Positions 133 through 32,071 of a stretch of 35,326 nucleotides of DNA are shown one piece after another. Position numbers and translations under genes: made by a program. Position 1 is the first letter of the stretch. Every line of letters starts with the position of its first letter. The DNA comes from an uncultured Bacteroidota bacterium (GTDB taxonomy: Bacteria; Bacteroidota; Bacteroidia; AKYH767-A; JABDAW01): positions 1 through 35,326 of the forward strand of contig CAIWCG010000175.1 in NCBI GenBank assembly GCA_903911135.1. Reading direction: 5' to 3'. The notes beneath the pieces were generated by a model. It made no database searches. It saw only the letters and a list, made by a program, of their open reading frames with translations, and had not been told where the DNA came from.

Positions 133-227
133 CCAAAAAACCTCAAAAATCAAAGTATTATCACCAAACTTTACCCCAAAATCCCTCCCCCATTTCCCAA
201 AATCCCCGTTGAGACCGCCAGGAATAA

Positions 228-521
228 GCCCTCACAACCCTAACACAAGCCCTCACAACCCTAACATACGCCCTCACAACCCTAACACAAGCCCTCACTA
301 CCCTAACACAAGCCCTCACAACCCTAACAGACTCCCTCACAACCCTAACAGACTCCCTCACAACCTTAACAGACTCCCTCACAACCTTAAGATACTCCCT
401 CACAACCCTAACATACGCCCTCACAACCCTAACACAAGCCCACACAACCCTAACATACGCCCTCACAACCCTAACATACGCCCTCACAACCCTAACATAC
501 TCCCTCACAACCCTCTTGCCA
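228..521. repeat. 21-bp tandem array 1 (about 13 units)
   Basis: Thirteen units start exactly every 21 bp at 228, 249, 270 and so on to 480, with a decaying fourteenth at 501. Each has the core CCCTCACAACCCTAACA followed by a 4-nt segment that varies among a few recurring versions. The strand is C-rich and lacks G, unlike its surroundings. The array ends about 50 bp before the promoter of the T9SS gene at 628. Because 21 is a multiple of 3, all frames stay open and give artefactual seven-residue repeat ORFs on both strands. Confidence 0.95.
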
Positions 522-5650: not shown

Positions 5651-5707
5651 GAATTTATATTTATTTCACCTTTTATAAGCTAAAATTGGTTCACAGGAGA
5701 CATGTTT

Positions 5708-5971
5708 GTGTCGAACATCTTGATGTTGGTGACGAACATCTTGATGTTGGTGACGAACCTCTTGATGTTTGTGACGAACCTCTTGATGTTTGTGACGAAC
5801 CTCTTGATGTTGGTGACGAACCTCTTGATGTTGGTGACGAACCTCTTGATGTTGGTGACAAACCTCTTGATTTTGGTGACGAACTTCTTGATGTTGGTGA
5901 TGAACCTCTTGATGTTGGTGATGAACCTCTTGATGTTGGTGATAAACTTCTTGATATTGGTGATGAACATC
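5708..5971. repeat. 21-bp tandem array 2 (12 units plus a partial)
   Basis: Twelve full units start at 5708 and every 21 bp after, with a partial one at 5960. The core is GACGAACCTCTTGATGTTG with scattered single-base changes (GATGAAC, GACAAAC, CTTCTTG). It begins 58 bp after the flippase stop. Its consensus is unrelated to array 1, but the period is identical. Open frames across it on both strands are a by-product of the period. Confidence 0.95.
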
Positions 5972-6076
5972 TAAACTAACGGTATTTTAGTGTCATAGGT
6001 AGGTATTGAGGCATTATTTATGATAATTCAAACAGGTGTTTTGCAAATGAACATCAAAAATCAATATTAAAATTAA

Positions 6077-12379: not shown

Positions 12380-12637
12380 CGATTGACTAAGAAGTTAAGT
12401 CGATTGACTTAAGAAGTTAAACGTATATTATAAACTCTTAAACGTGTGTTATAAACTCTTAAACGTATGTTATAGACATTTAAACGTGTGTTATAAACTC
12501 TTAAACGTATGTTATAAACTCTTAAACGTGTGTTATAGACTCTTATACGTGTGTTATAGACATTTAAACGTGTGTTATAAACTCTTAAACGTATGTTATA
12601 GACAATGAAACGCCTCTTTCAATGTCTTAGTCAATCG
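12380..12637. repeat. Inverted repeat bracketing array 3
   Basis: CGATTGACTAAG at 12380-12391 has its exact reverse complement CTTAGTCAATCG at 12626-12637. Array 3 lies between the arms. A near-duplicate of the left arm (CGATTGACTTAAG) follows at 12401-12413, 21 bp on, so the left arm already has the array period. Confidence 0.75.
12417..12605. repeat. 21-bp tandem array 3 (9 units)
   Basis: Nine units start every 21 bp from 12417 to 12585. The core is TTAAACGTGTGTTATAAACTC-like; versions GTGTGTT/GTATGTT and AAACTC/AGACAT alternate in mixed combinations, suggesting duplication of unit pairs. It lies in the gap between the divergent genes starting at 12224 (minus) and 13481 (plus). Confidence 0.93.
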
Positions 12638-12917: not shown

Positions 12918-13169
12918 TTATAAGTAGTGTTACTTAGGTTATAAGTAACACTACTTACGTTATAAGTAGCACTACTTACGTTATAAGTAACACTACTTAC
13001 GTTATAAGTAACACTACTTAGGTTAAAAGTAGCACTATTTAGGTTATAAGTAACACTACTTAAGTTATAAGTAACACTACTTAGGTTATAAGTAGCACTA
13101 CTTAAGTTATAAGTAGCACTACTTAAGTTATAAGTAGCACTACTTGTATAATAAGTAACACTACTTATT
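12918..13169. repeat. 21-bp tandem array 4 (12 units, dyad-symmetric core)
   Basis: Twelve units start every 21 bp from 12918. The core is AAGTAACACTACTT or AAGTAGCACTACTT, itself an inverted repeat (AAGTA/TACTT). The first unit instead carries AAGTAGTGTTACTT, the exact reverse complement of the AACACT version. The linker between cores is CGTTAT, GGTTAT or AGTTAT. Sequence and symmetry differ from array 3, only 310 bp away, but the period is the same. Confidence 0.95.
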
Positions 13170-19370: not shown

Positions 19371-19401
19371 CGCCAAAAAAGCGGGTGTTTTAGGCATAAA
19401 A
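19371..19401. repeat. Leader of array 5
   Basis: GCCAAAAAAGCGGGTGTTTT and the following AG form a segment that is repeated just before array 6 (19563-19582). The exact shared word is CGGGTGTTTTAG at 19382-19393. Confidence 0.75.
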
Positions 19402-19548
19402 AACTCTCGAATTGGCAGGATAAACTCTCGAATTAGGAGGATGAACTCTCTAATTACGAGGATAATCTCTCTATTTGGGAGGATGAACTCTCTAATTGGG
19501 AGGATGAACTCGCGAATCTTGATTTTAATCTCTTAAATATTGATGGGA
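19402..19548. repeat. 21-bp tandem array 5 (5 clear + 2 degenerate units)
   Basis: Units start every 21 bp from 19402 with the core AACTCTCGAATT followed by a more variable 9-nt half (GGCAGGATA, AGGAGGATG and so on). The last two units, from 19507, are decayed (ATCTCTTAAATA). The array is in the gap between the DUF4920 gene start at 19235 and the AddB-like gene end at 19971. Confidence 0.9.
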
Positions 19549-19562
19549 AGGGAAAAATAGGT

Positions 19563-19589
19563 GGCAAAAACGGGTGTTTTAGCCTCCTC
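19563..19589. repeat. Leader of array 6
   Basis: GGCAAAAACGGGTGTTTTAG matches the leader of array 5. In both, CGGGTGTTTTAG is followed after exactly 14 nt by the word CGAATTGGCAG inside the first unit. Confidence 0.75.
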
Positions 19590-19736
19590 GTTACCCCGAA
19601 TTGGCAGCTCGTTACCCCAAATGGGCACCTCGTTACCCCGAATATTCAAACGGTTACCCCGAATATGGAGGTAGTTACCCCGAATCGTGGGGTGCTTACC
19701 CCAAATTCAAAAGCATTTACCCCGAATGGTGGAGGC
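19590..19736. repeat. 21-bp tandem array 6 (7 units, 12+9 organisation)
   Basis: Seven units start at 19590 and every 21 bp. The first 12 bases, GTTACCCCGAAT, are nearly invariant, with only single changes (CCCCAAAT, CTTACC, TTTACC), whereas the remaining 9 differ in every unit. This constant/variable layout is sharper than in the other arrays. Confidence 0.92.
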
Positions 19737-19804
19737 TAGGATGCGAGTGGAGGCTGTAGGGTTTGTTTTTTAGCTGTTTCGGAGCTTGGGCGAGGGAGTG
19801 GAGC

Positions 19805-19943
19805 GGCGCCGAAGGCGGTTCTTTGCCTTTGGCGGGATATTGCGTGGGCGGCAAAAACGGAGCGTAGCGAACCCGTGTAGCACCCCGACCCCTTGCAGCA
19901 GCCCTTTCCCTTAAGGCTGCTGCTGGGGGCGCCCCCAAGGGAG
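19805..19943 (-). repeat. GC-rich hairpin element, copy 1
   Basis: On the minus strand the element starts with the palindrome GGGGGCGCCCCC (19925-19936), then a stem CAGCAGCC/GGGCTGCTG enclosing AAGGGAAA, then GGTCGGGGTG, GGGTTCGCTACGCTCCG and TTTTTGCCGCC. It starts 28 bp after the AddB-like gene stop on the same strand. A second copy lies inverted at 35235-35326. From memory, similar GC-rich elements are frequent in Bacteroidota genomes; I cannot name a family. A small ORF across it (19717-19938) is an artefact. Confidence 0.75.
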
Positions 19944-27006: not shown

Positions 27007-27092
27007 AATTTTTGTTTTTTAATTGTTAATTTATTATTTTTAATGATCATTTAATTCCATGAATAACTTGTAAATCCGGTACTTTCACCAAT

Positions 27093-27260
27093 CCCATGCA
27101 TTTGCTCTTCAATCCCATGCATTTGCCCGCCAAACCCATGCATTGGTCCGCCAATCTCATGCATTTGCCCACCATTCTCAGGCATTTGAACTTCAAACTC
27201 ATGCATTTGCCCGCCATTTCCATGCATTTGAACTTCAATACCAAAAGTTTGCCAAATAAG
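27093..27260. repeat. 21-bp tandem array 7 (7 units + 1 degenerate)
   Basis: Units start every 21 bp from 27093 with the core CCCATGCATTTG, containing the palindrome ATGCAT, followed by a 9-nt half that alternates between CCCGCCAAA-like and AACTTCAAA-like forms. The eighth unit at 27240 is decayed. It sits between the divergent genes starting near 27006 (minus) and 27806 (plus). Confidence 0.92.
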
Positions 27261-31617: not shown

Positions 31618-31850
31618 CTCTTATTAGAGGATGCCATAAACCGTACAGATTATGCCATCCTCTAATAAGAGAATGGCATAAACTACGCAAATTAGGCCGC
31701 TCTCTTATAAGAGAATGGCCTAAACCATGCAGATTATGCCATCCTCTGATAAGAGAATGGCATAAACCACGCAAATTATGCCATCCTCTGATAAGAGAAT
31801 GGCATAAACTATGCAAATTTTGCCTCTCTCTTATAAGAGAATGGCATGAT
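31618..31850. repeat. 42-bp (2 x 21) hairpin array 8
   Basis: Hairpin centres recur every 42 bp from about 31660 (31702, 31744, 31786, 31828), plus a first copy at 31618. The stem is ATGCCAT...ATGGCAT with inner CTCT-GATA-AGAG or the perfect palindrome CTCTTATAAGAG. The linker is AAACYAYGCAAATT. The words ATGGCAT and ATGCCAT are spaced exactly 21 bp, so the unit is two half-units of 21. In one hairpin the arms are AGGCC (31694-31698) and GGCCT (31717-31721), a compensatory pair of changes. Confidence 0.93.
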
Positions 31851-31965
31851 AAATTGTGAAAAGCACCTAGAAAAACATTCGATTGAACTTAACTGCTGCT
31901 TGATCCTTTATCATTGAAGGGAACATTCTCTTTCTAAAAGCTCTTTCGAGCAACCTGCCAACGAG

Positions 31966-32071
31966 CATAGCCCCGATAGTAGCGGCAGCCCGCTGCTTTG
32001 TTTCGGCAATGGGGATGCAGCGGCTACAGCGGATAGCGGGACGTACATGATACGAGAAGCTGCCATAGGCT
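31966..32071 (+). repeat. Structured intergenic element, right inverted copy
   Basis: CATAGCCCCGATAGTAGCGG, then the stem CCGCTGC...GCAGCGG around TTTGTTTCGGCAATGGGGAT, then GCGGATAGCGGGACGTACAT and GATACGAGAA (to 32058) and CATAGGCTTC. From memory, CCCCGATAG...GGATAGCGGGAC elements are widespread between Bacteroidota genes; their role is not known to me. Confidence 0.75.

Follow-up and report, generated by a model that had tools for sequence, protein, structure and literature searches.

CRISPR arrays consist of a conserved repeat of about 23-47 bp alternating with unique spacers of about 26-72 bp. In Borg extrachromosomal elements many tandem-repeat regions have been described, nearly all of unique sequence, partly intergenic and regarded as recently formed (PMC9879509). 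Their units are perfect and of varied length, 14-38% of the intergenic ones being divisible by three; partial repeats stand at the edges, about half of the repeats lie in genes, and they occupy 0.62% of the genome and are virtually absent from the host chromosome (PMC9879509). These repeats are the closest published analogue of the arrays described here in the literature searched, and they are not period-locked. BrickBuilt of Porphyromonas gingivalis is a minisatellite inside a MITE that is present in 19 copies per genome; its 23-nt unit has a single sequence, and there are no spacers (PMC4596501). No report of period-locked arrays was found in the literature searched, which takes in few subscription papers.

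The window, the whole stretch of 35,326 nt that was analysed, belongs to an uncultured Bacteroidota bacterium whose genome, with those of its congeners, holds hundreds of intergenic tandem arrays of fixed period and free sequence. This is the main result, and it is more important than the pair of arrays (5 and 6) on which the original prediction was made.

The gap that holds arrays 5 and 6 has a DUF4920 gene on one side and, on the other, a gene whose product carries a PD-(D/E)XK nuclease domain; both genes are on the minus strand. The arrays and their leaders are given on the plus strand. The leader of array 5 (19374..19393, CAAAAAAGCGGGTGTTTTAG) includes the 12-mer CGGGTGTTTTAG at 19382-19393 and precedes six units of 21 nt (19401..19526, consensus approximately GAACTCTCTAATTGGGAGGAT). 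The leader of array 6 (19563..19582, GGCAAAAACGGGTGTTTTAG) has the same 12-mer at 19571-19582 and precedes seven units of 21 nt (19590..19736), which have a near-invariant core TTACCCCGAAT and unrelated spacers. As predicted, the word CGAATTGGCAG follows CGGGTGTTTTAG after exactly 14 nt in both arrays, at 19408 and 19597; the intervening 14-nt gaps are GCATAAAAAACTCT and CCTCCTCGTTACCC. Most of each gap consists of an incomplete unit of the array that follows, so that array-type sequence extends nearly to the leader. The distance between the two leaders is 189 bp, exactly 9 × 21, and both arrays stand in one absolute 21-bp register. When the 21-nt consensus units are anchored to the leaders, 12 of 21 positions match at shift 0 and no more than 8 at any other shift, and seven of the mismatches are contiguous. 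The prediction of a common leader, spacing and first part of the unit with different repeat cores therefore holds, with one correction: GCAAAAA stands ahead of the second leader only, and the first has GCCAAAAAAG.

The similarity of these leaders is not due to chance. Exact runs of at least 8 nt on one diagonal sum to 23, the maximum in 4000 Markov-1 resamples was 18, and only one of 888 control pairs of array starts exceeded 10, a pair which proved to be homologous. The possibility that the leader is just a common short repeat can be set aside for the full 12-mer, since CGGGTGTTTTAG has only two sites (19382 and 19571) in the whole genome (3.80 Mb, 296 contigs); a search for the leader pattern recovered both of these and no further array with it. 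The upstream leader part GGCAAAAACGG does recur in a dispersed repeat of about 160 bp. One copy of this repeat (19775..19942, no strand assigned, GGCGGCAAAAACGGAGCGTAGCGAACCC...ACCCCGACC) lies on the right side of the gap and has GGCAAAAACGG at its start in common with the second leader; it has at least 40 genome matches, and most of those listed are to this stretch. Near arrays this repeat keeps one orientation relative to the array, as does, in nearly every case, the Flavo-1 RNA treated below. When the gap was searched as DNA in the family, arrays 5 and 6 had no counterpart elsewhere, and the matches were to the adjacent dispersed repeat only.

The two arrays differ in their internal structure. 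Among the seven units of array 6, identity is 96% in the core TTACCCCGAAT and 32% in the remainder (permutation p = 0.005), and the likeness of the spacers is no greater than that of random DNA. Array 5 is more uniform than array 6, and its core/spacer split is non-significant (permutation p = 0.49). Array 6 folds no better than column-permuted arrays. The common register and the difference of one block are plain in this pair; the order of events may be reconstructed as follows. Arrays 5 and 6 would be sub-blocks of one 21-bp-phased intergenic tract, in which a piece with the leader and the first unit was probably duplicated exactly nine units away. Afterwards a contiguous unit block of about 7 nt would have come to differ between the arrays while uniform within each, with spacing and register kept. 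Two sub-blocks of such an older tract, duplicated by nine units and homogenised separately, fit the pair equally well as the change of a single unit followed by its amplification.

At least six further arrays of period 21 or 42 lie in the window. The units of the array at 224..514 (plus strand) consist of GCCCTCACAACCCT and AACATAC/AACACAA, and its leader and trailer are homologous to those of two loci which keep the 14 nt and have a different 7-nt block. The remaining arrays have no strand assigned. Those of period 21 are found at 5702..5972 (about 13 copies between convergent genes), 12417..12612, 12931..13167 (with a 6-bp dyad TACTTA..TAAGTA) and 27088..27243 (core CATGCATTTG with a variable spacer). 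A 42-bp array with strong dyad symmetry occupies 31618..31847, and a Flavo-1 RNA (RF01705) at 31965..32047 on the plus strand reads away from it. This array is related to another 42-bp array of the same genome, G000:C33:4809-5034; the homologous flanks on both sides are inverted, the two places are not orthologous, and the units of both are near-complete palindromes (ATGGCATAA..TTATGCCAT).

If such arrays are numerous in one window, then we can ask: how common are they in the genome and its relatives? We compared the genome of the window (G000) with two genomes of the same genus (G001 and G002) and one of the same family (G003). Arrays of at least 80 bp numbered 79 of period 21 and 24 of period 42 in G000 (0.71 Mb), 114 and 24 in G001 (0.71 Mb), and 9 and 2 in G002 (0.11 Mb). 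With a threshold of 70 bp, counts of 105 in G000 and 154 in G001 were obtained, corresponding by extrapolation to 3.8 Mb to about 560 and 820 per genome. For the three genomes of the genus the extrapolated number is thus roughly 560 to 820 intergenic arrays in 3.8 Mb, and their period is almost always 21 or 42. Many G000 contigs end in arrays or Flavo-1 copies, so the array counts are probably too low. The same periods dominate a scan of intergenic tandem runs without regard to copy number, in which a single array may yield more than one run: 120 runs had period 21, 28 had period 42 and 7 had any other in G000 (0.71 Mb), and 173, 32 and 16, respectively, in G001 (0.71 Mb). Periods 18, 24, 27, 30 and 31-32 are rare or missing among these runs, and coding regions have far fewer 21- and 42-bp runs than intergenic ones.

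The arrays stand in tandem, convergent and divergent gaps several hundred bp long, rarely inside open reading frames, and occupy about 3% of the chromosome. The median identity of a unit to its consensus is 0.91. As head-to-tail copies of a unit in the range of about 10-100 bp, they belong among the minisatellites. No 21-bp array with more than two copies turned up in the 189 kb sampled from G003, where repeats were scattered and of differing periods, and such arrays were also missing from short stretches taken from five more genomes within the order; in this sample the arrays are restricted to the genus.

While the period is common to all, unit sequences are different in nearly every array. 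Words of at least 12 nt were common to two unit consensuses in 19 array pairs (0.5 expected), and many of these pairs turned out to be loci with homologous flanks. The clearest case of block replacement with leader, trailer and register kept is a triplet made up of the window array at 224-514, G000:C30:9229-9558 and G000:C40:10268-10617. All three share the leader, the trailer and the 14 nt GCCCTCACAACCCT in register, and the 7-nt remainder is AACATAC/AACACAA in the window, CTTACCT in C30 and GCGTTAC in C40, each through 14 to 17 copies. The last units of the first and third arrays end in CTTGCCA and ACTACCA, near the form of the second array, as if an older form had been kept at the edge. The gene that follows the window array and the one that follows the C40 array start alike. 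Copy number differs among the homologous loci (13.9, 15.7 and 16.7).

The same behaviour was seen when all period-21 arrays were compared by leaders of up to 300 bp. Fifty-eight pairs in 36 groups aligned until close to the array, a number that includes a few redundant rows (in two, arrays 5 and 6 are paired with TRF rows of their own, and some loci entered the comparison from both sides). Their leader-phased unit identity ranges from 2 to 21 of 21, and some pairs with a good leader in common have wholly different arrays. The leader-anchored shift was the best of 21 in 31 of the 58 pairs against 2.8 expected (11 times chance), and among the 33 pairs of intermediate identity it was the best in 25; mismatches were clustered in 17 intermediate pairs (z = -4.2). 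Register is also kept between neighbouring arrays in one gap, since 14 of 23 pairs, arrays 5 and 6 among them, keep one absolute 21-bp register across the intervening DNA (1.1 expected). Thus the rule read from arrays 5 and 6, that leader and period are kept while a replacement of part of the unit spreads along the array, has good support, mainly from loci outside that pair: the triplet, the leader-sharing pairs and the adjacent pairs in one register. Arrays in the same place that keep spacing and register while the repeat block is swapped suggest that spacing, not sequence, is what matters. G000 and G001 are too distant from each other (median protein identity 57%) for a comparison of orthologous gaps, of which only three were informative.

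Two observations concern related arrays at other places. The 42-bp arrays G000:C35:9536-9803 and G001:C6:10473-10698, from two species and non-orthologous places, have 25 nt of the unit in common (CCTCCCAGCCACGCGGATGGAACCC) and differ in the remainder. G001:C8:10482 and L078:3568 have a homologous leader, and the dyad GGAAACAGCGTTTCC of one corresponds to CCAAACAGCGTTTGG in the other; the difference hits both dyad arms, and symmetry is kept.

Units differ more the farther apart they lie in the array (divergence 0.14 between neighbours and 0.25 at lag 10), which indicates that arrays grow by local tandem duplication; the units at the edges are somewhat more divergent. A core/spacer split was significant (p < 0.05) in 24 of 157 arrays tested. 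In the older arrays a core of 8-14 bp is uniform and the rest drifts; for example, G001:C6:66774 has six copies of the core CGGCTCAAGAA and a spacer identity of 43%. In 38 arrays with spacer identity of 0.65 or less, core-to-core spacing was 21 in 234 of 242 cases, 42 or 63 with a skipped core in seven, and 22 once. Spacers which collect substitutions without indels imply either a constraint on the spacing or its continual restoration. Some indel is present in about 30% of the TRF rows of 21- and 42-bp arrays, so this strict figure is valid for the core test and not for every array.

The explanation we prefer, with a probability of about one half, is that these are sequence-tolerant, helically phased arrays of two or four turns which turn over by concerted evolution. 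Its parts do not stand equally firm. The evolutionary part is very probable: as the rise of divergence with distance shows, arrays grow and are homogenised when whole units, singly or in groups, are duplicated in tandem. That the phase is constrained is also probable, if less so; spacers diverge freely with phase-breaking insertions and deletions almost absent, and the core stays uniform in old arrays, as seen in a subset. A role in curvature or chromosome architecture we put forward only tentatively. A self-similar element would then appear on one face of the helix at every second turn for about 200 bp, and the outcome would be curved DNA or a platform for architectural proteins in the gaps between transcription units. 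The spacings of 21 and 42 bp equal 2 and 4 helical turns of 10.5 bp, as in phased DNA, and because they are the smallest whole-bp multiples of this helical repeat, a physical function seems the most likely one. Such a role needs spacing and self-similarity and no particular sequence, which would explain how one array type can change into another.

In a wedge model, predicted curvature was 0.092 for arrays, 0.042 for shuffled sequence, 0.059 for array-free intergenic DNA and 0.045 for coding DNA, and it fell on either side of 21 when the unit was trimmed or padded. Column-permuted arrays of the same period reached 0.076 in this model against 0.092 (p = 0.03), with only 53% of arrays above their own permuted mean; most of the predicted curvature comes from the period itself. 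Units contain no internal periodicity of 10-11 bp or of A-tracts. Since permuted arrays are almost as curved and the units lack internal 10-11 bp periodicity, a sequence selected for curvature is at most a possibility. The conservation of cores in old arrays exceeds what curvature alone needs. It is possible, though we would not give it even odds, that the chromosome owes its organisation to several hundred intergenic arrays for which spacing and internal self-similarity count and sequence does not, where any short core in exact two- or four-turn phase serves and types replace each other in place with register kept.

The strongest rival is a mutation mechanism without function, in which an enzyme of fixed geometry duplicates any local sequence in 21- or 42-bp steps and nothing is selected; staggered nicks 21 bp apart with fill-in, or slippage on a nucleoprotein filament, are examples. 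Even intergenic duplications of two to three copies are almost only of 21 or 42 bp, and, taken together with the separate sequence of nearly every array, this speaks for a period set at birth. However, such a mechanism leaves unexplained why spacer substitutions saturate while indels stay near zero, why cores are uniform in old arrays and why runs are scarce in coding regions. We take a purely mutational origin of the period seriously, although we consider it unlikely, and favour a physical, sequence-tolerant role of phased DNA.

Phased DNA of tolerant sequence is also to be weighed against arrays of operator sites or RNA hairpins, where every core would serve as a binding site or fold as a structured RNA unit. 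The 42-bp arrays have strong dyads, fold far better than column-permuted ones (z averaging about -2.5 to -2.8 for either strand) and have ATGGCA/TGCCAT in common, and strong inverted repeats occur in 15-20% of 21-bp units where 1-2% are expected. But most 21-bp arrays fold no better than permuted ones and have no strong common motif, at most weak CGTAAC-type words in G000. Hundreds of distinct cores would require hundreds of regulators, and cores show no excess of targets in their own flanks (96 and 107 matches against about 90 expected), which makes this explanation improbable.

Slightly more doubtful still is that the arrays form the variable inner part of mobile elements of the MITE type, comparable to BrickBuilt, and were spread by transposition. 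The repeat beside many G000 arrays is the Rfam family Flavo-1, and a 20-nt word of it has 304 matches in G000 (up to 2 mismatches) and none in 40 relatives (up to 1 mismatch). In G000, 28 elements have an array on the side of their 5' end and read away from it, and often they lie on both sides of an array; the one exception is near a contig end and has an array only on its other side. These facts speak for mobile elements, as do the flanks shared by related 42-bp arrays at non-orthologous places. However, about one third of G000 arrays have no flank resembling that of another array, array sequences vary from copy to copy, and a family search found no Flavo-1 in G001, G002 or G003, though G001 is richer in arrays than G000, so that Flavo-1 is not needed for arrays.

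Heptapeptide-coding repeats (21 nt being seven codons) are rejected as very improbable: at least one frame is open in 94% of arrays and the period is divisible by three, but the variability has no codon phase (0.105 against 0.114 in the null) and no concentration of substitutions at third positions, open frames hardly exceed the column-shuffled/Markov null (2.57 against 2.33), the other multiples of three (18, 24, 27 and 30) are nearly absent, and arrays are found whatever the orientation of the flanking genes.

Conservation of sequence is the usual sign by which functional noncoding DNA is known. In these arrays the spacing is fixed and the sequence free at hundreds of loci in three genomes. 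If selection holds the 21-bp phase, then there would be a class of functional DNA invisible to methods based on sequence conservation, and the organisation of a bacterial chromosome by phased DNA structure would become a directly testable question. Should the period come from a mutation mechanism, the enzyme responsible, which would duplicate DNA by 21 bp at a time, is still to be found.

The arrays resemble the known systems each in a different respect. Like Borg repeats, they are tandem repeats spread over a genome, nearly every one with its own sequence; in contrast to them, they have units of 21 or 42 bp only, are imperfect, intergenic and in part of core/spacer structure, and make up about 3% of a bacterial chromosome. 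With BrickBuilt they have in common the Bacteroidota host and an intergenic tandem array with leader and tail, but here there are hundreds of arrays with differing sequences and a 21- or 42-bp period. Inverted-repeat ends of the BrickBuilt type may be represented by Flavo-1, which faces several G000 arrays on both sides, is absent from G001 and G002 and does not adjoin arrays 5 and 6. The alternation of a near-invariant core with unrelated spacers of fixed length in some arrays recalls CRISPR. However, the core is 8-14 bp, the spacer 7-13 bp and the whole unit 21 bp, the core is different in nearly every array, and growth duplicates units along with their spacers. A 21-bp unit with such a core is outside the CRISPR sizes of repeat and spacer. 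Local tandem duplication and homogenisation, that is concerted evolution, are shared with bacterial VNTRs and minisatellites, from which these arrays differ in a period fixed genome-wide and in a register that stays anchored to the flank while the unit is replaced.
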